Assembly (NCBI RefSeq): GCF_900240995.1
Contig: NZ_LT965953.1
Coordinates: 393,303-457,302 of the forward strand
Origin: Bacillus sp. Marseille-P3661
GTDB lineage: Bacteria; Bacillota; Bacilli; Bacillales; Bacillaceae_J
Length of the DNA stretch: 64,000 nt
Direction: 5' to 3'
Shown piece after piece: positions 21,351 to 43,750 of the stretch. Positions within the stretch are counted from its first letter, which is position 1, and every line of letters begins with the position of its first letter. The notes below the pieces were generated by a model, which did no database searches, was not told the DNA's origin, and saw only the letters and a program-made list of their open reading frames with translations. The translations under genes were made by a program, and so were the position numbers.

Positions 21351-21376
21351 TCAGGTGTGAGTAAGATCACACCTGA
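21351..21376 (+). promoter_or_regulatory. upstream Fnr/Crp-type site of the nos operon
   Basis: TGTGA-GTAAGA-TCACA occupies 21356-21371 and is nested in a longer perfect palindrome with arms TCAGGTGTGA and TCACACCTGA. No good -10 lies at the activating distance, so it may be an auxiliary or repressing site. Confidence 0.75.
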
Positions 21377-21497: not shown

Positions 21498-21552
21498 ATG
21501 GGTGTAGCAAGTTTTACTAACATAACAATGTTTGAAAGGGGGGCAATGCGAA

Positions 21553-21993
21553 ATGAAAAACTCGGTCATTATCTTTTTAGTATTTTTATTAGTAGGTTTC
21601 GGTGGGGGATATGTGTTCTTCCAATATAGTAATACCGCTGATGTTGCATCACCTGCACCTGAAGCTACTGAAATTGAAACTGATACAACAACTCCACAAG
21701 AAAGTGCAACTACTGAAGAACCGAAAACCGTTTCTGCAGAAGCTCAAATTATTACTGACAAAGGCTGTCTAGCATGTCACGCAGTTGAAAATCTTGGCTT
21801 ACAAGGTGGGGCAACAGGTCCTGACTTATCACAGGCTTTTAACAATGTAGAAGGTAAACATGGCAAACCAATTGATGAGTTTTTAAAAGAACCAACTTCA
21901 GCAGTTATGTCTAGTGTAATCAGTGGAAACCCACTTACAGATGAAGAAGTTACATCAATAGTAGAAGCATTAAAAATTGCGAGTGAAAAATAG
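21553..21993 (+). CDS. nosC: membrane-anchored cytochrome c of the nos operon
   Basis: This 146-residue protein has an N-terminal hydrophobic anchor (VIIFLVFLLVGFGGGYVFF), a Thr/Glu/Pro-rich linker, and one class-I cytochrome c domain with the haem motif CLACH. A conserved Met lies in the C-terminal half. ATG 21553 follows AAAGGGGGG. Being the first gene before nosZ, it is the likely electron donor to N2O reductase on the outer face of the membrane, as in other clade-II nos clusters. Confidence 0.88.
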   Translation: MKNSVIIFLVFLLVGFGGGYVFFQYSNTADVASPAPEATEIETDTTTPQESATTEEPKTVSAEAQIITDKGCLACHAVENLGLQGGATGPDLSQAFNNVEGKHGKPIDEFLKEPTSAVMSSVISGNPLTDEEVTSIVEALKIASEK

Positions 21994-22005
21994 GAGGTGC
22001 TTTAC

Positions 22006-23883
22006 ATGAAGAAAGGGTTAGTCCCAGCTTTAACAGGGCTTGTAGCAGGTGTTGTTGCATCGACAGTATTCTTTGCAGGGAACGACATTGGCCCGAGAAC
22101 AACCGCAAGTACGTCATCACCAGCTAGTACAAATGCAGAAAAGGTTTATGTTCCAACAGGTGAACTTGATGAGTACTACTTATTTGCATCAGGTGGTCAC
22201 TCAGGTCAAATGTTCATTTATGGTGTACCGTCAATGAGACATATCCGTACTGTTCCAGTCTTCTCACAAGACTCAGCAACAGGTTACGGTTGGTCAGAGC
22301 ATTCAAAGGAATTAATGGGCGACTACACATGGGGAGATCTTCACCACCCAGCTTTCTCTGAAACAAAAGGTGAATATGATGGTAAATGGATGTTTGCAAC
22401 TGACGTAGCGAACAGCCGTGCAGCCGTAATGGATTTAGAAAACTTCCAAGTTAAAGATATTCTAGAGGTTCCGAACACAAGTGGTCCGCACTGCGCGATG
22501 TTCGTAACTGAAAACACAGAGTATATGTTCTTACCAACTCGTTTCTCAGTACCATTAGGAAGTGAGTATGCTTCACTAGATGAATATAGCTCAAAATACT
22601 ATGGAGTAATGAGCGCTGTACAATTTGATGAAGAAGCTGAAAAGTTAGGTGTGTCTTGGCAAGTAGCTCTTCCACCATGGAGCTATGATTTATCAGATGC
22701 TGGTAAAGGCCCTTCACATGGTTGGGGTGTAATCACAACTTACAACACTGAAGAAGGAACAACTAATCTTGAAATTAACGCGTCTCAAGCAGACCGTGAC
22801 TATATCGTTTTATTCAACTGGAAAGAGCTTGAAAAAATGGTAGCTGAAGGACAATATGAAGAAATAAATGGTGAAAAGATCATCTTCCCTGAAAAACATA
22901 AAGGTGGATTATATCTAGTGCCTGTAGCAAAATCACCACATGGTGTTGACGTAACTCCAGATGGTACACGCTTTATTGCCTCAGGTAAATTAGCACCAGC
23001 TATGACAGTGTTTTCTTTTGAAAAAGCATTCCAAGCTATTGAAAATGGTGATTTCGCTGGCGAAAAATATGGTATGCCAGTTATCAATTACGATTCAATA
23101 GTAGAACGTGAAGTTAACCCTGAAAATGCACTTGGACCATTACACACTCAATTTGACGATCAAGGCATGGCTTATACAACAATGTTCATTTCTTCTGAAA
23201 TCGTTAAATGGGATCCAAATACAGGCGAAACGTTAGATCGTGTACCTGTTCAATATTCACCAGGTCACTCAGTTGCTGCTGAAGGTGACTCAGCATCACC
23301 AGATGGAAAATATATCATCGCATTAAACAAGATTGCAAAAGACTTATTCTTATCTGTTGGTCCGTCACATCCAGAAGCAATGCAGTTAATTGATTTAAGT
23401 GGAGAAAAGATGGAAGTTATTATGTCCGCTCCAGTAAATCCAGAGCCACACTATGCTCAAATGATTAAAGCAGATAAAATCAAAACATTTGAAGTTTATG
23501 AAAAAGATGAATCTAATCCACATGCAGTTTACAGTCAAGATCAAACACGTATTGAACGTAATGGTAATGAAGTAACTGTTTACGGTATCGCAATGCGTTC
23601 GAAATTTATCTTTGATTCAAAATCAGATCGTCCAGATGTAATTGAAGTTAACGAAGGCGATAAAGTTACGATTCATTTAACAAATATTGATTTCGATGAA
23701 GACATTACACACGGTTTTGCGATTAACCAACATAACTTAAACTTTGAGGTACAACCAGGTCAAACAGAAACAATTACATTTACAGCTGATAAAGCTGGTA
23801 CGTGGCCATTATATTGCACAAACTTCTGTTCTGCATTACACCAAGAAATGTCAGGATATCTATTAGTAAAACCAAAGAATTAA
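22006..23883 (+). CDS. nosZ: nitrous-oxide reductase, clade-II type
   Basis: This 625-residue copper enzyme reduces N2O to N2. A Sec-like signal (MKKGLVPALTGLVAGVVAST) without a twin-Arg motif marks the clade-II form. The seven-bladed propeller provides CuZ His ligands visible in DLHHP (His113/114), SGPHC (His162), SPHGVDV, PLHTQ, PGHSV and EPHYAQ. The C-terminal cupredoxin domain holds the CuA site CTNFCSALHQEM (Cys604, Cys608, His612, Met615). AGGAGGTG lies six bases upstream of the ATG. It works with the cytochrome c and the maturation genes that follow. Confidence 0.97.
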   Translation: MKKGLVPALTGLVAGVVASTVFFAGNDIGPRTTASTSSPASTNAEKVYVPTGELDEYYLFASGGHSGQMFIYGVPSMRHIRTVPVFSQDSATGYGWSEHSKELMGDYTWGDLHHPAFSETKGEYDGKWMFATDVANSRAAVMDLENFQVKDILEVPNTSGPHCAMFVTENTEYMFLPTRFSVPLGSEYASLDEYSSKYYGVMSAVQFDEEAEKLGVSWQVALPPWSYDLSDAGKGPSHGWGVITTYNTEEGTTNLEINASQADRDYIVLFNWKELEKMVAEGQYEEINGEKIIFPEKHKGGLYLVPVAKSPHGVDVTPDGTRFIASGKLAPAMTVFSFEKAFQAIENGDFAGEKYGMPVINYDSIVEREVNPENALGPLHTQFDDQGMAYTTMFISSEIVKWDPNTGETLDRVPVQYSPGHSVAAEGDSASPDGKYIIALNKIAKDLFLSVGPSHPEAMQLIDLSGEKMEVIMSAPVNPEPHYAQMIKADKIKTFEVYEKDESNPHAVYSQDQTRIERNGNEVTVYGIAMRSKFIFDSKSDRPDVIEVNEGDKVTIHLTNIDFDEDITHGFAINQHNLNFEVQPGQTETITFTADKAGTWPLYCTNFCSALHQEMSGYLLVKPKN

Positions 23884-23900
23884 GCACTAAACAACTAGTT

Positions 23901-23934
23901 GAGAGACTGGGAGCAGTAGATGGCTCCCTTCTCT
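23901..23934 (+). terminator. intercistronic hairpin after nosZ
   Basis: GGGAGC (23909-23914) pairs with GCTCCC (23923-23928), with outer GAGA/TCTC pairing and only a short T run. It may protect or attenuate the abundant nosZ message rather than stop transcription fully. Confidence 0.55.
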
Positions 23935-23958
23935 TTGATTAATTAAGGGGTGAGTGGC

Positions 23959-24522
23959 ATGAGCAAAAAGCTATCAGGAACGTCAATTGCTATTTTATTA
24001 ACTGCAGCTGCTTTGCTTGTAGTTTCAATTTTTTTACCTTGGTGGGGAATGGAATTTTTTGCACCGCAATATCCAGAAGGCTTAAACATTATCGTCTATC
24101 CATATAAGATGGAAGGTGAGATTTCAATTATAAATGGATTAAATCATTATATTGGTATGAAACCATTTAGTGAAGAAAGCTTTCCGGAATTATCCTATTT
24201 ACCATATATTATTGGCTTTATGGCTATACTTATTGTGGTTGTTGCCTTAATGCGTAATAAAAAGGTGTTATACGGTTTGGTCAGTATGTTTGTGGTTGGT
24301 GGAATCGTTGGGATTTATGATATTCATCGTTGGTTAAAAGATTATGGTACAGATTTAAGTCCACAAGCACCTATTGAGGTGGATCCGTTTATTCCACCGA
24401 TTATTGGTGAAAACACACTAGCGAACTTTCTGACTAATAGTTATTTTACGTATGGTTCGTTTTTATTAGGTATTGTATTTCTACTATTAATAATTCCAAT
24501 CTGGAAGGAAAGAACACGATGA
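23959..24522 (+). CDS. nosB: NosB-like membrane protein
   Basis: This 187-residue protein has about four membrane helices and starts MSKKLSGTSIAILLTAAALL after AAGGGGTG. A membrane protein of unknown function directly after nosZ is a hallmark of clade-II nos clusters and is called NosB there. The assignment is by position and topology, since I do not see a catalytic motif. Its stop overlaps the start of nosD by four bases. Confidence 0.72.
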   Translation: MSKKLSGTSIAILLTAAALLVVSIFLPWWGMEFFAPQYPEGLNIIVYPYKMEGEISIINGLNHYIGMKPFSEESFPELSYLPYIIGFMAILIVVVALMRNKKVLYGLVSMFVVGGIVGIYDIHRWLKDYGTDLSPQAPIEVDPFIPPIIGENTLANFLTNSYFTYGSFLLGIVFLLLIIPIWKERTR

Positions 24523-25826
24523 TAATAAGAATAAGCACCTTATTGATAGGTGTTTTTCTCTTATTTGCAGCTGACAGTGTTAGTGCTGAAGAAGACTTGC
24601 AAAAGCTAGTTGAGAAAACACCTGAAAATGGCACGCTGCAATTAAATAATGGAACATATGAGGGAAATGTAATTATTACAAAACCGATTACAATTATCGG
24701 TCAAGAAGATACAGTCATTAAGGGTGATGGAAATAGTAATGTTATTGCTATTCAATCACCTAATGTTCATCTAGAGAATTTAACAGTTACACACAGTGGT
24801 TATGACAGAAATTCAGGTGAAGAATATGCCGCCATCAAAATAATGGCTGACCATAACGTGATACGTAATATTGTGATTACAGAAAGCTTTCATGGTGTTT
24901 ACTTAAGCCAAGCACACCATAATAAGGTAAGTAATGTTCATGTTAGAGGTTTGAAAAAAGGAGAAATTGGTGGTCAAGGTAACGGCTTACACTTATATTA
25001 TTCAAATCATAACATTTTAGAAAAAAATGAGATAACTGGTACTCGTGATGGAATCTTTTTTGACTATTCGAATGAAAATGAAACAATTGAAAATAAGATT
25101 AGCCATACTAGATATGGTCTTCATTATATGTATTCAGATGATAATCAATTTTATCAAAATGTATTTACCTTTAACATTGGCGGTGCAGCTATTATGCACT
25201 CCAGACGAACTATTATGAAAAACAATGAGTTTACTTTAAATCAAGGAACCCGTTCTTATGGCTTGCTGCTACAAGCAGCCGATGATAGCACCGTAAGCGA
25301 GAATTTATTTTTTCAAAATCAACGTGGGATTTTCATTGATCAATCGCAACGGAATACCATTACTGAAAATGATTTTCTCCAAAATCAAATTGGTGTTGAG
25401 ATTTGGGCATCTTCAGCGGATCAGTTATTTACGGAAAATAAATTTTCGAATAACATTGCTGGTGTTTTAACACTAGGTGGTAAGGATAAAAGTAAGTGGA
25501 ATGAAAATGGGCGTGGAAACGATTGGGGTCATACAGTACCAGTTTTAGATTTAGATCAAAATGGAATTGGTGATTACCCGATTGAACATAAATCGTCGTT
25601 ATATCAATTAGTAGAAGAAAACGAATTAGCTTTTTTATTTTTAGATAGTCCTGCCATTCGTATTTATGAAAAAATGAATGAACTTCTAAATAATGATCAA
25701 GCGATGTTTATTGATGAATTCCCGCTTGTAAAGAAAAAGGAAACATACAACTTTAGCAAATTGCTAGTTCCGGTAGTACTACTACTTATTCTAGGATTTA
25801 TTAGCTTGAAAAGGAGAAGAACATGA
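24519..25826 (+). CDS. nosD: NosD copper-site maturation protein
   Basis: This 435-residue protein has a signal peptide (IRISTLLIGVFLLFAADSVSA), then a long right-handed beta-helix made of carbohydrate-binding/CASH repeats (series such as NVHLENLTVTHSG, HHNKVSNVHV and ENEITGTRDGIFF), and a C-terminal membrane anchor with KRRRT. NosD acts outside the membrane with NosF-NosY to supply sulfur or copper for the CuZ cluster. It overlaps both neighbours by four bases, so coordinated translation is likely. Confidence 0.93.
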   Translation: MIIRISTLLIGVFLLFAADSVSAEEDLQKLVEKTPENGTLQLNNGTYEGNVIITKPITIIGQEDTVIKGDGNSNVIAIQSPNVHLENLTVTHSGYDRNSGEEYAAIKIMADHNVIRNIVITESFHGVYLSQAHHNKVSNVHVRGLKKGEIGGQGNGLHLYYSNHNILEKNEITGTRDGIFFDYSNENETIENKISHTRYGLHYMYSDDNQFYQNVFTFNIGGAAIMHSRRTIMKNNEFTLNQGTRSYGLLLQAADDSTVSENLFFQNQRGIFIDQSQRNTITENDFLQNQIGVEIWASSADQLFTENKFSNNIAGVLTLGGKDKSKWNENGRGNDWGHTVPVLDLDQNGIGDYPIEHKSSLYQLVEENELAFLFLDSPAIRIYEKMNELLNNDQAMFIDEFPLVKKKETYNFSKLLVPVVLLLILGFISLKRRRT

Positions 25827-26623
25827 TGAATTACGTATGGAAGGAATGGATCGAGCAGTCAAGAGGAAAAGGTATATGGCTTTCGCTTGCAATGGTTGTG
25901 TTAATTTCATTGCTATTAGTATTACAAACTCGTACATTGCCATCAGAGCAAGGCTTTCCAGTCCTATTGCTGTCACTATACGAGATGAATATGTACATTT
26001 TCCCATTGCTAAGTTTATTTATAGCATCCTTTTCGATTATTCAAGAAAAAGAATTAAAAACATTAATGATTTTAATTACAAAACGTGAATCCTATCGCAG
26101 CTTTTTATTTAAAAAAAGCATTGCAATTCAAGCGATTACCTTAGCTGTTTTTGGATCATGGTATTTTTTGCTAGCAGTTTTGATGAAATTTTTCTTCCAG
26201 TTTAATGTAGGCCAATTTATCGCCTTTTTATCCACTGTTTTTGTACTTATTATTATTTTTAATCAAATAGGGTTATCACTAGGGAGTATTTGTAATACGA
26301 GAATGCAATTAATTGGTGCTAATATTTTCATTTGGTTTTTCTTTGTATTCTTATTGGATCTATTCTTTCTTTATATTTTACCTAGCGTATCCTATGAAAA
26401 TATAAGAGCATTTTCAATGATTTTCTTTCTAGATCCACTACAAACAATTCCGTTTTATTTAGACACATCATTAGGTGTTGTATCAATGGATCATTTATCC
26501 CGGTTGATGGATAAAATGGTTTGGGCATCACCGACAGTATTTCTAGCAATTGATGTCATTGTATGGGTAATTCTTTCATTTGAAATTGCTGTTTATTTTG
26601 GTAACAAGGGGGAACGAGCATGA
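25823..26623 (+). CDS. nosY: NosY ABC-transporter permease
   Basis: This 266-residue integral membrane protein has about six helices and starts MMNYVWKEWIEQSRGKGIWL. The segment SIIQEKELKTLMILITKRESYRSF matches the early cytoplasmic loop of ABC-2 type permeases. It pairs with NosF as the membrane channel of the NosDFY complex. AAAAGGAG lies upstream, and it overlaps nosD and nosF by four bases each. Confidence 0.88.
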   Translation: MMNYVWKEWIEQSRGKGIWLSLAMVVLISLLLVLQTRTLPSEQGFPVLLLSLYEMNMYIFPLLSLFIASFSIIQEKELKTLMILITKRESYRSFLFKKSIAIQAITLAVFGSWYFLLAVLMKFFFQFNVGQFIAFLSTVFVLIIIFNQIGLSLGSICNTRMQLIGANIFIWFFFVFLLDLFFLYILPSVSYENIRAFSMIFFLDPLQTIPFYLDTSLGVVSMDHLSRLMDKMVWASPTVFLAIDVIVWVILSFEIAVYFGNKGERA

Positions 26624-27291
26624 TTAAAATTGAAAATGTTACCCACTTCTATAATAAAAAAAATGTATTAAATAATGTAAATTTATTAGTAGAGAAAAAT
26701 GAATTATGTGCTCTAGTGGGACGTAATGGTGCTGGTAAATCAACATTAATTCATTTAATGCTAGACTTGTTGCCACTAAAAACAGGAAGTATTCAATTAA
26801 ATGAAATACATGTAAAGAAATCTGGATGGAAAAAGGTCGTGTCGTATTTACCTGAAAAATTTCAGCTATATCCACATCTTACAGGTGAGGAAAATATCCG
26901 CTTTTTTGCATCATTAACGGATAAAGAACCAGATGAAGAAAAGATTGCTGAAAAACTTAAATTGGTAGGATTATATGAAGACAAGGACCAGCAAGTCAAA
27001 GGATATTCAAAAGGAATGCTCCAGCGATTGGGCTTAGGTGTCATGCTATATTTTGATACAGACATTTTAATTTTGGATGAACCTACAAGTGGACTAGATC
27101 CAGTTGGTAGAATTGAAATTTTATCGATACTTAAGTTATTAAAAGGAAAAACAATTCTATTATCATCTCATCATATCGAAGAAATTAAACAAGTTTGTTC
27201 ACATGTTGCGTATTTAAAAGATGGGCAAATATCTAAATATACAATGGAAGACTTTGAAAATCAGATCATAAAAGAAGGTGCATTAAGATGA
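26620..27291 (+). CDS. nosF: NosF ABC-transporter ATPase
   Basis: This 223-residue ATPase has Walker A GRNGAGKST, signature-like KGYSKGMLQRLGL, Walker B ILILDEPTSGLDP and the switch His in LSSHHIEE. It energises the NosDFY complex that matures the copper-sulfur centre of NosZ. It is tightly packed between nosY and the lipoprotein gene with short overlaps. Confidence 0.93.
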   Translation: MIKIENVTHFYNKKNVLNNVNLLVEKNELCALVGRNGAGKSTLIHLMLDLLPLKTGSIQLNEIHVKKSGWKKVVSYLPEKFQLYPHLTGEENIRFFASLTDKEPDEEKIAEKLKLVGLYEDKDQQVKGYSKGMLQRLGLGVMLYFDTDILILDEPTSGLDPVGRIEILSILKLLKGKTILLSSHHIEEIKQVCSHVAYLKDGQISKYTMEDFENQIIKEGALR

Positions 27292-28229
27292 TGAAAAAAA
27301 TTCTAATGATGTTGATAGGAATAATTATCCTTACAGGCTGCAGTGCTGGATCAGGCAATATAAATGTACAAATAGTAGAAGAACCAACGTATGCACAAGG
27401 CCAAACGTCCAAAGTATCATTCGCAATTACAAATGGGGAAGAAGCTGTTGAGGGAGTAAATGTATCAGTATTATTTGAAATGGCGAAGATGGATCATGGT
27501 TCAATTGAGATCAATCTTGAAGAAGAAGGCAAAGGAATATATAGTGCCGATGTAGAACTGCCGATGGCAGGCGAATGGCAGGCGATTGTAACTGTCTCTG
27601 GTGAGGGCATTGATGCAGAGAAAGTAATTGATTTTACAGCTGTTGAAGGTACTAAAATAACGGCTGCGGATTTAGGTGGCGGTGTTTTAGCTACGATAAA
27701 CGGAGATGAAATAGTCCAATCGGATTTGGACTTCTATCAGTTTATCAACAAACTGCAAATAGAAATGTACCGAGAAAAAGATAAGCAAAATTATAAAGGC
27801 GCAGAGTTAGAAGAAGCGATGAAATATTGGGATGCACAAGAAGAAGCAACGAAACATCCAAATACTTTAATTACCCAAATCATTCGTCTACGTGCAATTG
27901 CCCTATTATCTGAAGAAAAAGGACATACCGTAACAAAAGAAGAAATTCAGGCTGAAATCGACAAAGTTCGAGCAACTTACGAGCAAAGTCCGGCAGCGTC
28001 TGCTATGATTAAAGAATATGGTGAAGAGAAATTTTGGTCAACGCAGGAACAGCAATATGAGCTAATTGTGCTATCTTCAAAGGTCCAACAAGATGTACTA
28101 AATAATGTTAAAAAAGAAAATCCTAACGCAGAAAGTAAAGAAGTTAACATGCTTGCTCAGAAAAAGTATGAGGAGCTATTAGTTTCTCAAGTAAGTACGT
28201 TAGACATAAAAATTAATAATCAGTTATAA
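27288..28229 (+). CDS. lipoprotein with YtkA-like and SurA/PrsA-like parts in the nos operon
   Basis: This 313-residue protein has a lipobox LTGCSA. The N-terminal half (about residues 20-125: INVQIVEEPTYAQGQTSKVSF, then FEMAKMDHG) looks like the YtkA/FixH-type immunoglobulin-like domain linked to copper or oxidase assembly. The C-terminal half is a helical SurA-N/PrsA-like segment (LATINGDEIVQSDLDFY, then KGHTVTKEEIQAEIDKV) with no PPIase domain visible. It occupies the slot where nosL often lies, and no separate NosL motif was found. The inferred role is extracytoplasmic chaperone for NosZ copper loading. Both domain calls are from pattern recognition only. Confidence 0.65.
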   Translation: MMKKILMMLIGIIILTGCSAGSGNINVQIVEEPTYAQGQTSKVSFAITNGEEAVEGVNVSVLFEMAKMDHGSIEINLEEEGKGIYSADVELPMAGEWQAIVTVSGEGIDAEKVIDFTAVEGTKITAADLGGGVLATINGDEIVQSDLDFYQFINKLQIEMYREKDKQNYKGAELEEAMKYWDAQEEATKHPNTLITQIIRLRAIALLSEEKGHTVTKEEIQAEIDKVRATYEQSPAASAMIKEYGEEKFWSTQEQQYELIVLSSKVQQDVLNNVKKENPNAESKEVNMLAQKKYEELLVSQVSTLDIKINNQL

Positions 28230-28279
28230 TTGGGCTAGTCTGCATGTTAGCAAATAGATATAAATCTTGGAGTGATAAA

Positions 28280-28861
28280 ATGAACAAGAGTAAAAAAACT
28301 GCCTTAATTGCAATCATGAGTGTAATGCTGATCATCATATCAGCATGCTCACAATCCCAATTCGATGCAGAGTATGACTGGCCAGCACCGGAGTTCTCAT
28401 TTATAAATCAAGATAATGAACAATTTTCTTCGGATGATCTGCAAGGAAAGGTTTGGTTAGCTAACTTTATCTTTACGAATTGTGAAACTGTATGTCCGCC
28501 AATGACGGCCAATATGTCAAAGTTACAAACAGAAATTAAAAATGAGGAACTAGATGTGCAATTAGTTTCATTTAGTGTAGATCCAGAAAGAGACACGCCA
28601 GAAGCTCTGACAGAATATGCTACGAAATTTAATGTGGATCATAGCAATTGGAATATGTTGACCGGTTATGATGAAACAGAGATTAAAAGAATTGCTAAGT
28701 CATTCAAAACACTAGCTGAACAAGAAGAAGGCACCGATCAGTTTATACATGCTACTGGTATATATCTTATTGATGCGGAAGGTACGATTGTTAAAAGTTA
28801 CAATGGGTTAAGTGTTCCTTATGAGTCAATCATGGAAGACTTAAAGGCCTTAACTAAATAA
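28280..28861 (+). CDS. SCO1/SenC-family copper chaperone lipoprotein
   Basis: This 193-residue lipoprotein (lipobox ISACS) has a thioredoxin-like fold. The copper motif CETVCPP and the downstream His of FIHATGIYLID match Sco proteins, which deliver copper to CuA centres. ATG 28280 follows TTGGAGTG. Being the last gene before the terminator, and given that NosZ has a CuA domain, it probably metallates NosZ. A role in cytochrome oxidase assembly is also possible. Confidence 0.9.
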   Translation: MNKSKKTALIAIMSVMLIIISACSQSQFDAEYDWPAPEFSFINQDNEQFSSDDLQGKVWLANFIFTNCETVCPPMTANMSKLQTEIKNEELDVQLVSFSVDPERDTPEALTEYATKFNVDHSNWNMLTGYDETEIKRIAKSFKTLAEQEEGTDQFIHATGIYLIDAEGTIVKSYNGLSVPYESIMEDLKALTK

Positions 28862-36550: not shown

Positions 36551-36593
36551 TGTGACAACTATCACATTCATAATTGTGAACCTCAGTTACCAT
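36551..36593 (+). promoter_or_regulatory. first Fnr-dependent promoter of the molybdoenzyme operon
   Basis: TGTGA-CAACTA-TCACA (36551-36566) is a perfect site. TACCAT at 36588-36593 places its centre at -41.5. Confidence 0.8.
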
Positions 36594-36655: not shown

Positions 36656-36698
36656 TGTGACTATGTTCACAGACTGAGAAACCAACATCAACTACATT
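36656..36698 (+). promoter_or_regulatory. second Fnr-dependent promoter of the molybdoenzyme operon
   Basis: A second perfect site, TGTGA-CTATGT-TCACA (36656-36671), has TACATT at 36693-36698, again with the centre at -41.5. The first gene starts 62 bases later. Confidence 0.8.
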
Positions 36699-36759
36699 AG
36701 ACATATTGAATTTAAACAGACCTTGAATGATTTAATTTTGATTATAGGAGTGATAAATA

Positions 36760-37929
36760 GTGAAAGCACTGGAACGAACTTTTTATTCAAAAGTTAGCAT
36801 GTATTCGTTCTTTGTAGTAGTGGTATTGTTTTTATCAATGTATATTGCTACTTCGCAGTTTCTACACATCGACATGGCGTTATTAGGATACATGATTTCT
36901 TCCTTTATATTTGCGATTGGATTGACAGTACGACTAGGGTCTTGGCTTATACGTCCGGCAACCCACCAGGTTGTTAAACGTAGTTTCAAAAACTTAAAGA
37001 CAAAATCAAGACAAAAACGTAATTTCAAATCTATTGCTAAAACAGCTTTCGAAAATATTTTCTTACAAAAGTTTATTTTTAAACGCGGTATATATCGTGG
37101 CCTACAGCACTTTTTAATTGCTTGGGGATGTATTGGATCTTTCGTCATAACATTTGGACTTACATTTGGTTGGTTCCATTTTAAACTTGTGGATCCCTCT
37201 ACGTATGCCATCGTGGTGATGAGCGTTCCAACGATTACAATGCCTGCACATGGATTTTTTGCAGAAATGGTTTACAACGGTTTAAACATTACTGCAATCA
37301 TGGTGTTAATCGGCGTTTGCATGGCGTTGTTTAGAAGAATTACATCACAAGATACGAAAGTAACAGAACGAGCAGAATTTGATTTGTTTCCGTTATACCT
37401 ACTATTAGCTGTAACTGCAACTGGTTTATTTTTAACAGTATCCTACACGTTTTTAGATGGCTGGCTGCACCCTTATTTAACACAAATTCATCAAATTACA
37501 GTAGTTATTTTGTTAGTATACTTTCCGTTTGGGAAACTGTTCCACTTACCGATTCGCCCGCTGGCAACAGCAGTTCCAATGAACTATCAAGAGGAGTTAC
37601 AGGTGGATACAAGACCTTGTAAAAAATGTGGAACAACATACAGCAGTGATGATCAAATAGAGGATGTTAAAGAAATTTTAGGCGCGCAAGCTTTTGATTT
37701 ACAGCTTGAAGATGGAAGCTATCTTGCTGATTATTGCTTACCATGCCGTCGCCGCATTCGTGTTATGAAACAGCTAAATATGGAATCTCCATTAGGAAAT
37801 CCGTTCAATCCAGTTCAAACAAATAATGGAATTCATTTATCCGGATTTGGTAAAAAACGTTCAGATGATTACTATAACCTACCAGAACATGTAAAGAAAC
37901 AATTAGTAACTAGTGGTAAAGAAAACTAG
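36760..37929 (+). CDS. membrane cytochrome-b-like electron-transfer subunit
   Basis: This 389-residue protein has about six membrane helices. Conserved-looking His residues lie in RGLQHFLIAWG, MPAHGFFAEM and HPYLTQIHQITVV, and the following YFPFGKLFHLPIRPL is typical of NarI/HdrE/DsrM-type quinol-linked cytochromes b. A C-terminal soluble tail carries two CxxC pairs (CKKC and CLPC), possibly a zinc or iron-sulfur site. A GTG start follows ATAGGAG. It is first in the operon and probably passes electrons from menaquinol to the iron-sulfur and catalytic subunits. It is not a standard NarI. Confidence 0.72.
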   Translation: MKALERTFYSKVSMYSFFVVVVLFLSMYIATSQFLHIDMALLGYMISSFIFAIGLTVRLGSWLIRPATHQVVKRSFKNLKTKSRQKRNFKSIAKTAFENIFLQKFIFKRGIYRGLQHFLIAWGCIGSFVITFGLTFGWFHFKLVDPSTYAIVVMSVPTITMPAHGFFAEMVYNGLNITAIMVLIGVCMALFRRITSQDTKVTERAEFDLFPLYLLLAVTATGLFLTVSYTFLDGWLHPYLTQIHQITVVILLVYFPFGKLFHLPIRPLATAVPMNYQEELQVDTRPCKKCGTTYSSDDQIEDVKEILGAQAFDLQLEDGSYLADYCLPCRRRIRVMKQLNMESPLGNPFNPVQTNNGIHLSGFGKKRSDDYYNLPEHVKKQLVTSGKEN

Positions 37930-37940
37930 GAGGGAATATC

Positions 37941-40064
37941 GTGAGTAAATATCTTGTTAAACCAGGTGTAAAAAACCTATTAAATCCAGGCGAAAAATTA
38001 ATCACTACGCATTGCTGTTATTGTGGTATGCAATGCGGAATGCATATACGTTTAAATGAAAAAACAGGCAAAGTTGTCGGTGTGGAACCGCGTTACGACT
38101 GGCCGGTTACAATGGGTAAAATGTGCCCAAAAGGTGTGACAGCCTATCAAACTGTTGATCACGAAGACCGTATTCTTCGTCCATTAATCAAAAAGAATGG
38201 TAAATTCGTTGAATCGAGCTGGGAAGAAGCGCTTGATTTAATTGAAAAGAACTTTAAAAGAATTCAAGCTGAACACGGCAAAGATGCATTGTCTGTTTTT
38301 GGCGGTGTATCGATGACAAACGAAAAGTGCTATCTTGTTGGAAAATACGCACGTGTTGCATTAGGAACTCGCTATATTGATTATAATGGACGTTTTTGTA
38401 TGAGTTCAGCAGCGGGTGGTTTTAATAAGACGTTAGGAATGGACCGAGGTTCAACATTACCGTATCCGGAGCTAGAACATTCAGACTGTTTCTTTATGGC
38501 TGGTACGAATACAGCAGAATGTCATCCAACAAGTATTCAATGGTTTTGGCGTGCAAAAGACAAAGGTGCAAAGTTAATTGTTGCGGATCCACGCGAAACG
38601 CCTACTGCACGTATTGCAGATGTGCATCTAGATTTAATTCCGGGTACGGATTCTGCACTAGCGAACGGAATCATGAACATTTTAATTCAAGATGGTTATG
38701 TTGATGAAGAATATGTTCAAAATCGTTGTAACAACTATGAAGAGCTAAAGCAAAATGTAGAAAAATTTACACCAGATTATACATCAGCGATTACTGGTGT
38801 TTCGGTTGATAAAATTATTAAGGCTGCACATATTTACGGCATGGCTCAAAAGTCAGTTGTAATGTTCGCTCGTGGTGTTGAGCAGCAAACAAAAGGTGTG
38901 GATAATGTAGCACTTTATACTTCAATGGCTTTATTACGTGGTCAAATTGGTAAGTTTGCATCAGGTGTTTCAACTTTCACTGGTCAAGGTAACGGCCAAG
39001 GTGGACGTGAACATGGTCAAAAATCTGATTTACTTCCAGGCTATCGTAAGCTTACTGATCCTGAAGCTGTTAAATATATTTCAGGTGTATGGGGAATCGA
39101 TCCAAAGGATATGCCGCAGCCTGGTGTATCAGCTTATGAAATGTTTGATGAAATTCAAGAGGGCAATATTCGTGCGATGCATGTGATTTGTAGTAACCCT
39201 GCAGTATCAGCACCAAATGTTGAACATATTTGGGCAGGCTTTAAGAAACTTGATTTCTTAGTAGTCAGTGATTTCTTCCTTTCGGAAACAGCTGAGTTTG
39301 CAGATGTTGTGTTACCAGCATCAACATGGGCTGAGGATGATGGCACAACTACAAATACAGAAGGTCGAGTTATCCGCATTCGCAAAGTTAAAGAATCAAT
39401 CGGTGAATCGAAACCAGATTGGAAAATTTTAAGTTTGATTGCCGAACGCATGGGTAAAGGCAAGCACTTCCAATATAATGATGCAAGTGAAATTTTTGAA
39501 GAGTTACGAATCGCTTCAAAGGGTGGTAAAGCGGATTATTCGGGTATCACATGGGAGCGTATTGATAAAGAAGATGGTGTTTTCTGGCCATGTCCATCTG
39601 AAGACCATCCAGGAACACCAACGATGTATAAAGAGAAGTTTGCAACGCCGGATGGAAAGGCAAATTTAGCTGTTGTGGATTGGAATGAACCTGCGGAAAT
39701 GCCTTCACCGGATTTCCCACATGTTTTAACAACAGGTCGCGTCGTGTTCCATTACTTATCTGGTAATCAAACTCGTCGTGTGGGATTTTTAATGGAGCAA
39801 TGTCCAACACCATATGCTGAAATGCATCCGGAATTAGCAAGTCAATATAATTTACAAAATGGCGATAAAGTGAAGTTAACAACTCGTCGGTCATCAATGA
39901 CATTAGATGTTCGTCATACAAAAGCAATCCGTAATGATACTGTATTTGTTCCGTATCACTGGGGAAAAGAATTATCAGTTAACCAATTAACAAACCCGGC
40001 ATTAGATCCAACATCTAGAATGCCAGAGTTTAAAGTTTGTGCGGTGAAATTATCTAAAGCGTAG
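37941..40064 (+). CDS. molybdopterin oxidoreductase, NarB/NasA-like nitrate reductase catalytic subunit
   Basis: This 707-residue Mo-bisMGD enzyme has an N-terminal [4Fe-4S] motif CYCGMQC with a further Cys in MGKMCPKG (about residues 25-62). The putative Mo ligand is Cys153 in NGRFCMSS. The stretch MAGTNTAECHP matches assimilatory NarB/NasA nitrate reductases. There is no Tat or Sec signal, so it is cytoplasmic. GTG 37941 follows TAGGAGGG. narK nearby and two Fnr sites upstream support nitrate respiration, but other oxyanion or formate-type substrates remain possible. Confidence 0.85.
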   Translation: MSKYLVKPGVKNLLNPGEKLITTHCCYCGMQCGMHIRLNEKTGKVVGVEPRYDWPVTMGKMCPKGVTAYQTVDHEDRILRPLIKKNGKFVESSWEEALDLIEKNFKRIQAEHGKDALSVFGGVSMTNEKCYLVGKYARVALGTRYIDYNGRFCMSSAAGGFNKTLGMDRGSTLPYPELEHSDCFFMAGTNTAECHPTSIQWFWRAKDKGAKLIVADPRETPTARIADVHLDLIPGTDSALANGIMNILIQDGYVDEEYVQNRCNNYEELKQNVEKFTPDYTSAITGVSVDKIIKAAHIYGMAQKSVVMFARGVEQQTKGVDNVALYTSMALLRGQIGKFASGVSTFTGQGNGQGGREHGQKSDLLPGYRKLTDPEAVKYISGVWGIDPKDMPQPGVSAYEMFDEIQEGNIRAMHVICSNPAVSAPNVEHIWAGFKKLDFLVVSDFFLSETAEFADVVLPASTWAEDDGTTTNTEGRVIRIRKVKESIGESKPDWKILSLIAERMGKGKHFQYNDASEIFEELRIASKGGKADYSGITWERIDKEDGVFWPCPSEDHPGTPTMYKEKFATPDGKANLAVVDWNEPAEMPSPDFPHVLTTGRVVFHYLSGNQTRRVGFLMEQCPTPYAEMHPELASQYNLQNGDKVKLTTRRSSMTLDVRHTKAIRNDTVFVPYHWGKELSVNQLTNPALDPTSRMPEFKVCAVKLSKA

Positions 40065-40106
40065 AAATGATTTGTGCGGAAAGAATGAAAAAGGGAGTGG
40101 GAAGTT

Positions 40107-40649
40107 ATGAATAAGATTATGTATCTTGAATTTGAACGTTGTATCGGGTGTCGTTCATGTCAAGCGGCTTGCCGTGAGTGTGGTGGACATGATGCGAAAG
40201 AACGTAACTATGTTGAATATGTTGATTTTATGGAAAGCCGTCAAACGTTTCCAATGTTATGTATGCAATGTAAGGATCCAGCATGTGCTCGAGTTTGTCC
40301 TGCAAATGCGATCCAAATTACAGAAGAAGGCGTTGTTCTTTCGGCAATGGAAGAAAAGTGTATCGGCTGCCGAAATTGTACATTTGGATGTCCATTTGGA
40401 ATACCGAAGTTCGACTTTGAAGAGAATAAAATGTACAAGTGTGATATGTGTTATGACCGTTCTAAGCATGATATAGCACCGATGTGTGCATCTGTATGTC
40501 CGAGTGATGCGATTCGTTTTATTGACTTTGAAGAAATGCAATTATTACGCCGTAGACGTACACAAATGAATTTAGTAGAAGGTAAGAAACCGAAAGAAGG
40601 CAACAAGTGGGATTATGTACCTGAATTCTTTGGAGTTTATACAGATTAA
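40107..40649 (+). CDS. four-cluster ferredoxin-type subunit (DmsB/NrfC-like)
   Basis: This 180-residue cytoplasmic protein has four Cys groups: CIGCRSCQAAC, CMQCKDPACARVCP, CIGCRNCTFGCP and CDMCYDRSKHDIAPMCASVCP. It should bind four [4Fe-4S] clusters, as in the electron-transfer subunits of DMSO-reductase-family enzymes. It follows the catalytic gene and probably wires it to the membrane subunit. A ribosome site, AAGGGAGTGG, is upstream. Confidence 0.92.
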   Translation: MNKIMYLEFERCIGCRSCQAACRECGGHDAKERNYVEYVDFMESRQTFPMLCMQCKDPACARVCPANAIQITEEGVVLSAMEEKCIGCRNCTFGCPFGIPKFDFEENKMYKCDMCYDRSKHDIAPMCASVCPSDAIRFIDFEEMQLLRRRRTQMNLVEGKKPKEGNKWDYVPEFFGVYTD

Positions 40650-40774
40650 TTATTTGCTGCCAGATTAAGGAGGACATAGTTCGGCTTTGTCTTCCTTTTA
40701 ATTACAATTGGCTGAGCAAACATTATTTATAGAAGAAAATTGAGTTTTTAGATTTATAGAGAGGGGTGCATGGG

Positions 40775-41308
40775 ATGTCAGAGGAAAAGAAATTAGGTCG
40801 TAATAAAAAAAATACCGATGACGATATGATTAACCTTGTTGATAATTTAAATCGTGATGATGATTTAACATATAATAGACGTGCGTTTTTAAAAACCGCA
40901 GTAGGTGCTTCAGTTACATTAGGTTTAGCAACATTACCATTTACAATTAAATCAATGTCAAAACAGGGGGAAGAAGCAGCTGAAAAATTTGAGGTGGCGA
41001 AATTAGCCGATATTCCGAAGGGAAGTTCGATTAATTTTAACTACCCGACAGAACATGATCAAGCTATTTTAGTGCACACTAAAGATGGCGATATTAAAGC
41101 ATATAATAATAAATGTACACATCTACAGTGTCCTGTTTTTTATGAAAAAGAAGAAGAAATTCTTTTGTGTCCATGTCATAAAGGCTATTTCAGCATAGCA
41201 ACAGGCCACCCTGTAGCAGGACCTCCACAACGTGAACTTCCACTAATCGAATTAGAAGTTGAAAATGATACGATCTACGCAATCGGAAGGAAGATTCGCC
41301 ATGGATAA
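40775..41308 (+). CDS. Rieske [2Fe-2S] protein with Tat-type anchor
   Basis: This 177-residue protein has a twin-Arg motif NRRAFLK (residues 34-40) followed by a hydrophobic segment. Its Rieske domain has CTHLQC and CPCHKGYF: ligands Cys114, His116, Cys132 and His135, with disulfide Cys119-Cys134. It should be exported folded and remain membrane-anchored facing outward. A Rieske protein beside a DMSO-reductase-family enzyme is atypical for Firmicutes nitrate reductases, but recalls archaeal nitrate reductase clusters. ATG 40775 is chosen over GTG 40766 on ribosome-site spacing. Confidence 0.88.
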   Translation: MSEEKKLGRNKKNTDDDMINLVDNLNRDDDLTYNRRAFLKTAVGASVTLGLATLPFTIKSMSKQGEEAAEKFEVAKLADIPKGSSINFNYPTEHDQAILVHTKDGDIKAYNNKCTHLQCPVFYEKEEEILLCPCHKGYFSIATGHPVAGPPQRELPLIELEVENDTIYAIGRKIRHG

Positions 41309-41498
41309 ACGACGGATTTATTGGGTTTTAATTTTCCTTACATTAGCAGTAAATGTTTTAATGCTGCATCAGACGATTGAGGCTTATTATGGTCAGGAAT
41401 ATCATATTGTCTATCGAAATACAGCAGTTGCAATGGTCTCAGTTTTCATTTCGTTAATTGTCTATTTTGGCTGGAGAAAAAAAGAATATAGTAAGTAA
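41301..41498 (+). CDS. 65-residue two-helix membrane protein
   Basis: The sequence starts MDKRRIYWVLIFLTLAVNVL and has a second helix ending IVYFGWRKKEYSK. It overlaps the Rieske gene by eight bases and has AAGGAAG upstream, so it belongs to the operon. It is probably an assembly or structural membrane peptide of the complex. No family recognised. Confidence 0.7.
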   Translation: MDKRRIYWVLIFLTLAVNVLMLHQTIEAYYGQEYHIVYRNTAVAMVSVFISLIVYFGWRKKEYSK

Positions 41499-41718: not shown

Positions 41719-42270
41719 TTACCAATCTTTTGCGGCGATGACTTTAAAGCCTGTTGTTGTAGAAAAGGTTTCTTCACCATCAGTTGTAATGAGTGTGCAT
41801 TCTGTAACAATAAATGAATCACTGCTATCGCTAGCTAATTTATAATCCATTAATAAACCAGTGCCAATCTCTACACCATCCTCATCTAAAACCTTTACTT
41901 TTTGACCTTCCATCGTTTTAAATTTGGCTTTATGTAAAAAGGTATACCACTCATTCCAATTCGTAACGACATAAGCTCCTTCACCATTCTCTAAGTATCC
42001 TAACAAACTGTTAGAATCATCGATCTTTCCTTCAACTAACTCGTTAACATATAAAATACTATTGTGGATAATCTCATATTGATCCATGGTGAGGTTTCCA
42101 CCGTATTCGAATTTTATTTTAGAATCTTCATGATCCATCGTAATTGAACCGATCGTTTTTTGAGTCTTGTCGTCTAAAATTGAATACTTTTTGTCGGATT
42201 TATGTATATTTTTTGAACTTAAATCTATCTGATCTAATGGCTTAAACGTTGTTATATCAGTACTTAGCAA
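41719..42270 (-). CDS. hypothetical protein divergent from narK
   Basis: This 183-residue acidic soluble protein starts LSTDITTFKPLDQIDLSSKN from TTG 42270, which lies seven bases after AGGAGGT. There is no signal peptide, membrane helix or motif that I recognise. The N-terminal part mentions no Cys, and the C-terminal half is beta-rich by eye. It is divergent from narK, with the Fnr-type site at 42329 between them, so it may be an anaerobically controlled accessory protein. Confidence 0.65.
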   Translation of the reverse strand: MLSTDITTFKPLDQIDLSSKNIHKSDKKYSILDDKTQKTIGSITMDHEDSKIKFEYGGNLTMDQYEIIHNSILYVNELVEGKIDDSNSLLGYLENGEGAYVVTNWNEWYTFLHKAKFKTMEGQKVKVLDEDGVEIGTGLLMDYKLASDSSDSFIVTECTLITTDGEETFSTTTGFKVIAAKDW

Positions 42271-42328: not shown

Positions 42329-42344
42329 TGTGAACATTGTCACA
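42329..42344 (+). promoter_or_regulatory. Fnr-type site of narK
   Basis: A perfect TGTGA-ACATTG-TCACA. The hexamer at the -10 position for a -41.5 centre is TAACCT (42366-42371), a weak match. The site lies in the divergent gap and could serve either gene. Confidence 0.75.
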
Positions 42345-42445
42345 CCTTTAACTTTTAAATTCCCTTAACCTAATCATATAGAAAAACAGCAAATAAGTGA
42401 AAAGTTATTTAAAAAAATAGATTTAGTTAATTGGAGGTTTCAACG

Positions 42446-43750
42446 ATGGCACGTATTACACAATGGAATCCTGAAGATACGCATTTTTGGGAAACAGAAG
42501 GAAAAAGACATGCAAAACGCAACTTATGGATTTCAGTATTTGCATTAATGCTTGCGTTTATCATCTGGCAAATATGGTCAGTCGTGGCTGTACGCTTAAA
42601 TGATGTTGGGTTTAATTTTTCAAAAGACGAATTATTTACGTTAGCTGCATTACCAGGTTTAGTGGGGGCAACAGCAAGAATATTCTTTACATTTATGCCT
42701 GGGATGATCGGTGGTCGTAACTGGACAGTTATTAGTACTGGATTTTTATTAGTTCCAGCAATCGGAATTGGTATCGCCGTACAAAACCCAGAAACATCTT
42801 TTATGACAATGGCAATTTTAGCTGCACTTTGTGGTATTGGTGGAGGTAATTTCTCTTCTTCAATGGCAAACATTAGTCCATTTTTTCCTAAAAAAGAAAA
42901 AGGGACAGCTAACGGCATCAACGGTGGACTTGGAAATTTAGGTGTAAGTATTGTCCAATTCGTAACACCAGTTATTATCACCGTACCATGGTTAGGTATG
43001 ATGACTGGCGGTTCACAACAAATGGCAAATGGCTCAGAAGTATTTATTCAAAATGCAGCATTTGTATGGGTTGTACCGATCATTATTTTAACGGTGGTTG
43101 CGTTTTTCGGAATGGATAATCTACCAGGAGCTAAGCAATCGTTTAAAGAACAATCTGCAATATTCAAAGAAAAGCATATGTGGATTATGGCATGGCTTTA
43201 CACAATGTGTTTTGGTTCATTTATTGGTTATGCAGCAGCCTTTCCGTTATTAATCAATGCATCATTTCCTGAGAGTGGCGGCGCAGCTTTAGCGTTCCTT
43301 GGGCCATTAATCGGTGCATCTTTCAGACCAGTAGGTGGCTTTTTATCAGATAAAATCGGCAGTGGCGCAAAAGTAACATTTTACTCAACAGTATTAATGA
43401 TAGCTGCAACTATCGGTGTAATCTTCTTCTTGAATGCCGGAAGTTTTGTAGGATTCTTGTTAATGTTTATCATCGTGTTCTTAGCAACTGGTATCGCGAA
43501 TGGTTCAACATTCCAAATGGTACCATTTATCTTTACTGGAGAAAAGGCCAAGCTGTCTGCGCCAGTATTAGGATTTATTGCAGCCATTGCAGCGTATGGT
43601 GCATTCTTAATTCCGAAAATTTTCGGTTGGTCAATTGACACAACAGGAAGTGGACATTTGGCTTTATATTTATTCTTAGCTTATTATGCTGTGAGTTTAG
43701 TAGTTTGTTGGTATTTCTATGTTCGTAAAAATGCAGAAGTTAAGTGCTAG
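42446..43750 (+). CDS. narK: nitrate/nitrite transporter NarK
   Basis: This 434-residue MFS protein has about twelve helices. Nitrate-signature-like segments are GATARIFFTFMPGMIGGRNW in the first half and GGNFSSSMANISPFFPK later, with the substrate Arg in the first. TGGAGG precedes ATG 42446. It imports nitrate or exchanges it for nitrite, which fits the adjacent nitrate-reductase-like operon. Confidence 0.93.
   Translation: MARITQWNPEDTHFWETEGKRHAKRNLWISVFALMLAFIIWQIWSVVAVRLNDVGFNFSKDELFTLAALPGLVGATARIFFTFMPGMIGGRNWTVISTGFLLVPAIGIGIAVQNPETSFMTMAILAALCGIGGGNFSSSMANISPFFPKKEKGTANGINGGLGNLGVSIVQFVTPVIITVPWLGMMTGGSQQMANGSEVFIQNAAFVWVVPIIILTVVAFFGMDNLPGAKQSFKEQSAIFKEKHMWIMAWLYTMCFGSFIGYAAAFPLLINASFPESGGAALAFLGPLIGASFRPVGGFLSDKIGSGAKVTFYSTVLMIAATIGVIFFLNAGSFVGFLLMFIIVFLATGIANGSTFQMVPFIFTGEKAKLSAPVLGFIAAIAAYGAFLIPKIFGWSIDTTGSGHLALYLFLAYYAVSLVVCWYFYVRKNAEVKC

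Follow-up and report, generated by a model that had tools for sequence, protein, structure and literature searches.

Prokaryotic nitrate reductases are divided into Nar, Nap and Nas in a 2026 review, with Nas serving assimilation (PMC13223375), and in a phylogenetic study the Nas/Nap/Aio branch of molybdenum (Mo) enzymes was described as having neither four-cluster nor membrane-anchor partners (PMC7331816). We analysed a 64,000-nucleotide stretch of the genome of Bacillus sp. Marseille-P3661 (contig NZ_LT965953.1, positions 393,303 to 457,302; hereafter the window), which carries an operon of five genes that we call M, A, B, R and T. The operon encodes a real and widespread nitrate reductase-like complex in which a Nas-type catalytic subunit is joined to respiratory partners and a Rieske protein, and this gene content contradicts the statement on the partners of the branch (PMC7331816). 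We did not find the operon described in the literature searched, which comprised open-licence papers, and a description elsewhere is possible. A nasC-HCP-Rieske set was reported in B. bataviensis by Heylen and Keltjens (2012).

The closest described system on the side of the catalytic subunit is NasC, the assimilatory enzyme of Bacillus, which falls in the same clade as A (support 100/100) and has nearly identical active-site motifs. NasC, however, is soluble, is linked to NAD(P)H and has no M, B, R or T, whereas the score of A does not reach the NasC cut-off and FNR boxes precede its operon. NarGHJI shares with the operon a predicted NarI-fold subunit, a four-cluster ferredoxin, NarK, FNR boxes and a presumed inside active site, but A has a cysteine and not an aspartate as Mo ligand, B lies far below NarH and no NarJ was found in the annotated genes; the operon also adds a Rieske protein and a peptide, and the distal-heme ligand H66 of NarI is not conserved in M. 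The arsenite oxidase AioBA likewise has a Rieske protein with a twin-arginine translocation (Tat) signal beside a Mo enzyme of the Nas/Nap branch, although in AioA no protein residue binds Mo and there is neither a ferredoxin nor a NarI partner, and both R and A fall short of the cut-offs for Aio. In haloarchaea, too, a nitrate reductase gene set includes a Rieske protein and a membrane cytochrome, but there the NarG-type catalytic subunit faces outward and the cytochrome belongs to the bc1 type (NarC; PMC8301774). Complexes with QmoC, DsrM or HmcE also join inner iron-sulfur (FeS) and outer redox modules, and M weakly matches QmoC and DsrM; their inner partners are HdrD/GlpC-like and not a nitrate-type Mo enzyme. 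Judged by its composition, the operon is not Nar, Nap or assimilatory Nas.

The features of the locus, in positions of the window, are the following:

M, 36760-37929, + strand: membrane cytochrome b with a modelled NarI fold and a CxxC...CxxC C-terminal region, 389 aa
A, 37941-40064, + strand: NasC-like molybdopterin catalytic subunit with Cys153 as Mo ligand and no signal peptide, 707 aa
B, 40107-40649, + strand: DmsB/NarH-like ferredoxin for four [4Fe-4S] clusters, no signal peptide, 180 aa
R, 40775-41308, + strand: Rieske [2Fe-2S] protein with a twin-arginine motif (NRRAFLK), Pfam PF00355
T, 41301-41498, + strand: membrane peptide of 65 aa with two hydrophobic helices; its ATG overlaps the end of R
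U183, 41719-42270, - strand: gene of no known function that co-occurs with the operon; N-terminal alpha/beta domain and C-terminal Sm/Hfq-like barrel in the model
NarK-type nitrate/nitrite transporter, 42431-43750, + strand: ATG probably at 42446
FNR box 1, 36551-36566, + strand: TGTGACAACTATCACA, upstream of M, an exact TGTGA-N6-TCACA
FNR box 2, 36656-36671, + strand: TGTGACTATGTTCACA, upstream of M, an exact TGTGA-N6-TCACA
narK FNR box, 42329-42344, + strand: upstream of narK

The preliminary description, made from the letters of the window, had noted five collinear genes with narK close by and had read them as a NarI-like membrane protein with two CxxC pairs, a signal-less NarB/NasA-like Mo enzyme with a Cys ligand, a four-cluster ferredoxin, a twin-arginine Rieske protein and a two-helix peptide. 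All of these readings held: the five open reading frames are present, collinear and tightly packed on the + strand, each protein has the features named, and a NarK-family gene lies at the position listed. The start of R is most likely ATG 40775 rather than GTG 40766. In relatives the median gaps are -1 nucleotide (nt) between M and A, 22 between A and B, 30 between B and R and -8 between R and T, spacings like those of an operon.

Protein A contains Fe4S4, molybdopterin and dinucleotide-binding domains and carries neither a signal peptide nor a twin-arginine signal. Its score against the NasC equivalog model was 906.7 bits, below the cut-off of 1100, and over 50 operon genomes the scores with this model were bimodal, at 838-928 for A-type proteins and 1141-1341 for true NasC. 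Sampled pairs of A and bacillar NasC were 44-49% identical, and by these sequence measures A is close to, yet distinct from, NasC. The scores against the models of NarG (TIGR01580; 60.5 bits, cut-off 1084), NapA (307 bits, cut-off 930) and AioA (152 bits, cut-off 359) showed that A belongs to none of these types; its ligand is Cys153 and not the Asp of NarG, and this cysteine is invariant, which also sets A apart from AioA. A did pass the cut-off of the NCBIfam formate dehydrogenase alpha model (TIGR01591; 684.6 bits against 666.25), and automated pipelines may therefore misname it as a formate dehydrogenase, or as assimilatory, across many genomes. The host genome has, at C2:438349-440427, a formate dehydrogenase-like frame with an in-frame TGA, possibly for selenocysteine, and a TAA.

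The active-site residues are of the nitrate type. The pair Cys153-Met154 and Arg356, the latter in a GGREHG motif, were present in 79 of 79 A sequences and are the same in NasC. Formate dehydrogenases instead have Gln or His after the ligand and an RG(Q/H)NN motif; in the A sequences Met154 and TGQ(G/A)N stand at these places, and a pocket of the formate dehydrogenase type (His/Gln after the ligand, Arg in RG(Q/H)NN) was not found among them. The Cys-Met and Arg of A match those of NapA by motif alignment, which would equate Arg356 with the NapA arginine above the catalytic pocket, a possible nitrate-binding residue (PMC13223375). In the trees the A-type proteins of Bacillota, those of Bacteroidota and Deinococcus, and bacillar NasC made up the one clade mentioned above, which stood apart from formate dehydrogenases, proteobacterial NasA and NapA. 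As to the branching order of the three groups, neither a single operon clade (approximately unbiased test, p 0.386) nor a grouping of the bacillar operon with NasC (p 0.103) was rejected.

To M, Pfam and NCBIfam assigned only the weak QmoC and DsrM matches. When an AlphaFold2 (AF2) model built with 53 sequences (pLDDT 78.6) was compared with solved structures, E. coli NarI and the NarI-like part of EtfD ranked highest (Z 10.5-11.1, Foldseek probability 1.00); the Foldseek E-values were not below 0.001, but the NarI chains were nevertheless well separated from unrelated matches. On the strength of this model, M has the NarI fold. Matches to G-protein-coupled receptors and to TRP channels were set aside as generic helical packing. 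Across 80 M sequences His117, His244, His262 and Cys124 were invariant. In the profile alignment H244 corresponds to H187 and H262 to H205 of NarI, while H117 is near H56 of NarI by position only. The position of NarI H66 is occupied by Ser or Ala and never by His in the 80 sequences, and the invariant Cys124 lies on the same helix. The set of four histidines that binds two hemes in NarI was thus not found in M; since H117, H244 and H262 are kept, the inner heme pair is apparently retained, and the outer heme would have no obvious partner.

A basic loop of M (residues 65-110) contains 14 Lys or Arg and a single Asp or Glu. By analogy with NarI topology, this loop and the C-terminal region would lie on one side of the membrane, which we take as the inside, and B would dock there. 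Both CxxC pairs are complete in 72 of the 80 sequences and three of the four cysteines are missing in Bacteroidota, so the pairs are not essential and we dropped them as an essential electron-transfer site. The likeness of the M C-terminus to that of HycF was weak (E 0.8). Five genomes (G072, G121, G123, G150 and G182) have a further, divergent paralogue of M (about 362-384 bits).

Pfam and NCBIfam identified A as a molybdopterin oxidoreductase, B as a multi-cluster ferredoxin and R as a Rieske protein. In B, 17 cysteines are invariant in 77 sequences, which is sufficient for four [4Fe-4S] clusters, and its score against the NarH model (52.5 bits against 524) showed that it is not NarH-type. 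The six Rieske ligands of R (C114, H116, C119, C132, C134 and H135) are conserved, and only one or two of 78 sequences lack the twin-arginine motif. The Ser position of high-potential Rieske proteins is an invariant Gly in R, and the Tyr position is mostly Phe. Loss of such Ser and Tyr residues goes with a lower potential in Rieske mutants, and the sequence of R predicts a lower potential that would suit menaquinol. R also resembles the arsenite oxidase small subunit AioB (E 7e-13), its 48.6 bits being below the cut-off of 95.65. T was recognisable in 62 loci, and a two-helix peptide stands in the same position after R also in Brevibacillus, Bacteroidota and Deinococcus; the equivalents in the latter two match DUF6755, a model that the T of the window does not reach. 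In one locus (L047, 10974-11720) a gene for a NUBPL/Mrp-type FeS-carrier ATPase is inserted between B and R, and other Mesobacillus loci have B-R gaps of a similar kind, which suggests that the gene is inserted there too.

The scan with A yielded 80 loci, and M, A, B and R stood together in about 77 of them, the rest being on short or cut contigs. The hosts include many genera of Bacillaceae, Exiguobacterium, Brevibacillus, Ammoniphilus and Bacteroidota such as Cyclobacterium and Salegentibacter. On a plasmid of Deinococcus wulumuqiensis we found M-A-B-R-DUF6755 followed by a nitrate/nitrite transporter, and with the loci of Bacillota and Bacteroidota this makes the gene set common to three phyla. 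Its recurrence in two phyla and on the Deinococcus plasmid confirmed that the set is not a chance arrangement.

Among the 50 operon genomes, NarG was above cut-off in 6, NapA in 7 and NasC in 21. In 20 of the 50, A was the sole enzyme, with no NarG, NapA or NasC, nor the fused NasA-like protein of some Bacteroidota; these include Mesobacillus selenatarsenatis SF-1, M. subterraneus, Exiguobacterium and Brevibacillus. A NarK-family protein is encoded in 18 of these 20 genomes (E below 1e-40), few passing the curated cut-off. The two without it are Bacteroidota, one of which has a gene for a SLAC1-type channel adjoining the operon. In 150 genomes of the host's order M was present in 36 and NarG in 25, which makes the operon the commoner of the two there. 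A phylum-wide sample contained M in only 2 of 398 genomes, the host and one of its order, and the absence of M from sampled members of the host's own family shows how patchy the distribution is. The host itself carries four nitrate-reductase types, namely NarG, NapA, true NasC and the M-A-B-R-T operon.

The window contains five perfect TGTGA-N6-TCACA boxes where 0.03 would be expected; two of them precede M, one precedes narK and two precede the nosZ region. Of 72 Bacillota loci, 61 have an exact FNR box in the 400 nt upstream of M, compared with 0.04 per 400 nt across all loci. The sequence TACATT at 36693-36698 resembles a -10 element; a start site near 36705 is plausible, and FNR box 2 would then be at -41.5, a typical activating position. 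Boxes before narK were less regular (7 of 22 loci). The NarK of the window scored just below the TIGR00886 cut-off (300 bits against 311.7) and matched the NarU subfamily model with E 6e-117. Neighbours of the operon in relatives include Crp/Fnr-family regulators, molybdenum cofactor genes, NarK-type transporters, a SLAC1 anion channel and YwiC. Neither NarJ nor an NAD(P)H-dependent partner or nitrite-assimilation genes were found among the five genes and the annotated neighbours, where the flanking reading frames are annotated in part and an unlinked partner is possible. Upstream of the operon in a Brevibacillus locus (L062, 4463-5968) there is a gene for a major facilitator superfamily transporter fused to a PAS domain.

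Taken together, the operon probably encodes a membrane-bound, anaerobically induced menaquinol:nitrate oxidoreductase with its active site facing the cytoplasm. The preliminary description had proposed a non-canonical quinol-linked reductase of nitrate or another oxyanion, and the nitrate version of this proposal gained support from the grouping of A with nitrate reductases and not with a family for another substrate, and from the wide co-occurrence of the five genes. A respiratory, quinol-linked role is supported by the FNR boxes, the linkage to NarK and the frequent absence of NarG, NapA and NasC. We infer the substrate, the donor, the direction of electron flow, the roles of R and T and the coupling to protons as follows. 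Nitrate would enter via NarK, and the NarI-like M would oxidise menaquinol close to its outer face, with release of protons outside. Electrons would then cross the membrane via heme b of M and be relayed by the four clusters of B to the FeS cluster in A, and the Mo centre of A would reduce nitrate to nitrite in the cytoplasm. Such a redox half-loop would resemble that of NarGHI but would be achieved with a Nas-type catalytic subunit; the anatomy, the linkage to NarK and an inner docking side like that of NarI speak for both the half-loop and the inside active site. R, exported by Tat to the outer face, may take the electron-entry role of the distal heme of NarI. We prefer, with low confidence, R as first electron acceptor in place of that heme because M is without one ligand of the outer heme; alternatively, R may feed in electrons from another source.

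Several points weigh against a menaquinol:nitrate oxidoreductase of this kind. Transmembrane electron transfer is not assured, since a second heme in M would find no invariant His partner, and no gene for a NarJ/NapD-type chaperone was identified next to the operon. In the host's order 5 genomes have both M and NarG where 6 would be expected (p 0.80); the operon thus shows no association with NarG, either as a replacement or by avoidance, and we do not claim it as a NarG substitute. Anaerobacillus alkalilacustris, which has the operon, NapA and NasC, is listed as not using nitrate as electron acceptor (PMC11944866). A. arseniciselenatis is nitrate-positive, but it has the operon, NarG and NapA and does not discriminate. 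For the sole-operon species M. selenatarsenatis and M. subterraneus no phenotype support for nitrate respiration was found in the readable literature.

A different topology would result if A and B were exported by means of the Tat signal of R, in the way that AioA is by that of AioB; the enzyme would then be extracytoplasmic, and M would pass electrons to it on the outer face. Of these three proteins only R has a signal, R resembles AioB, and A lies within the broad Nas/Nap/Aio branch (PMC7331816). However, the NarK-family transporters in 18 of the 20 sole-operon genomes would then be unneeded, inner-side NarI ligand positions are kept in M (H262, and H117 by position), R is below the AioB cut-off and A keeps the Cys ligand that is absent in AioA, and we consider this export improbable. 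We regard it as very unlikely that the operon is an assimilatory nitrate reductase for which quinol, rather than NAD(P)H, supplies the electrons: A is nearest to NasC (907 bits) and 29 of the 50 operon genomes have no NasC above cut-off, but FNR boxes stand upstream of M, the annotated neighbours include no nitrite-assimilation genes, and a separate true NasC is kept in 21 genomes and in the host. That the natural substrate is another oxyanion, such as chlorate or selenate, or formate seems extremely unlikely, although A exceeds the formate dehydrogenase alpha cut-off and some operon hosts respire selenate or arsenate; the pocket residues of formate dehydrogenases are absent, the nitrate-type pair is invariant, and the operon is linked to NarK.

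U183, between T and narK, co-occurs almost perfectly with the operon and belongs to its system as a sixth gene. Among the 150 genomes of the order, 31 of the 36 that have M also have U183, as against 1 of the 114 that lack M (Fisher p 9e-26, kinship not corrected for), and in three genomes (G121, G123 and G182) a second M is accompanied by a second, short U183 a few kb away. No Pfam family was matched by U183. In its AF2 model (pLDDT 94.7) the N-terminal domain resembles ZipA/COR folds, while the likeness of the C-terminal barrel to Sm/Hfq proteins (Z 6.4-7.4 over about 60 residues) is suggestive only, and the protein may be a maturation factor or a regulator. The homologue in the one genome without M (G097, C2:971395-971925) may be a relic or may show an independent role.

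Elsewhere in the window (21532-28861) there is an operon for a Sec-type (clade II) nitrous oxide reductase, with a 153-aa open reading frame, NosZ (21997-23883), NosD and an ABC-transporter ATPase gene; its two perfect FNR boxes are at 21356 and 21454.

If the menaquinol:nitrate oxidoreductase described here is what the operon encodes, its function contradicts the division in which Nas is assimilatory only (PMC13223375). A bolder view, which we hold to be rather unlikely, is that the operon adds a fourth type to the prokaryotic nitrate reductases Nar, Nap and Nas. In this type the distal heme of a NarI-like subunit would be replaced, at the quinol-oxidising site, by an outward Rieske cluster, and proton coupling would differ from that of NarGHI; on the same view the soluble assimilatory NasC of Bacilli would descend from such a membrane-bound respiratory ancestor. 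Surveys that count narG and napA would miss the operon, which also allows a direct test of the way in which a Rieske protein can serve a reductase that faces inward.

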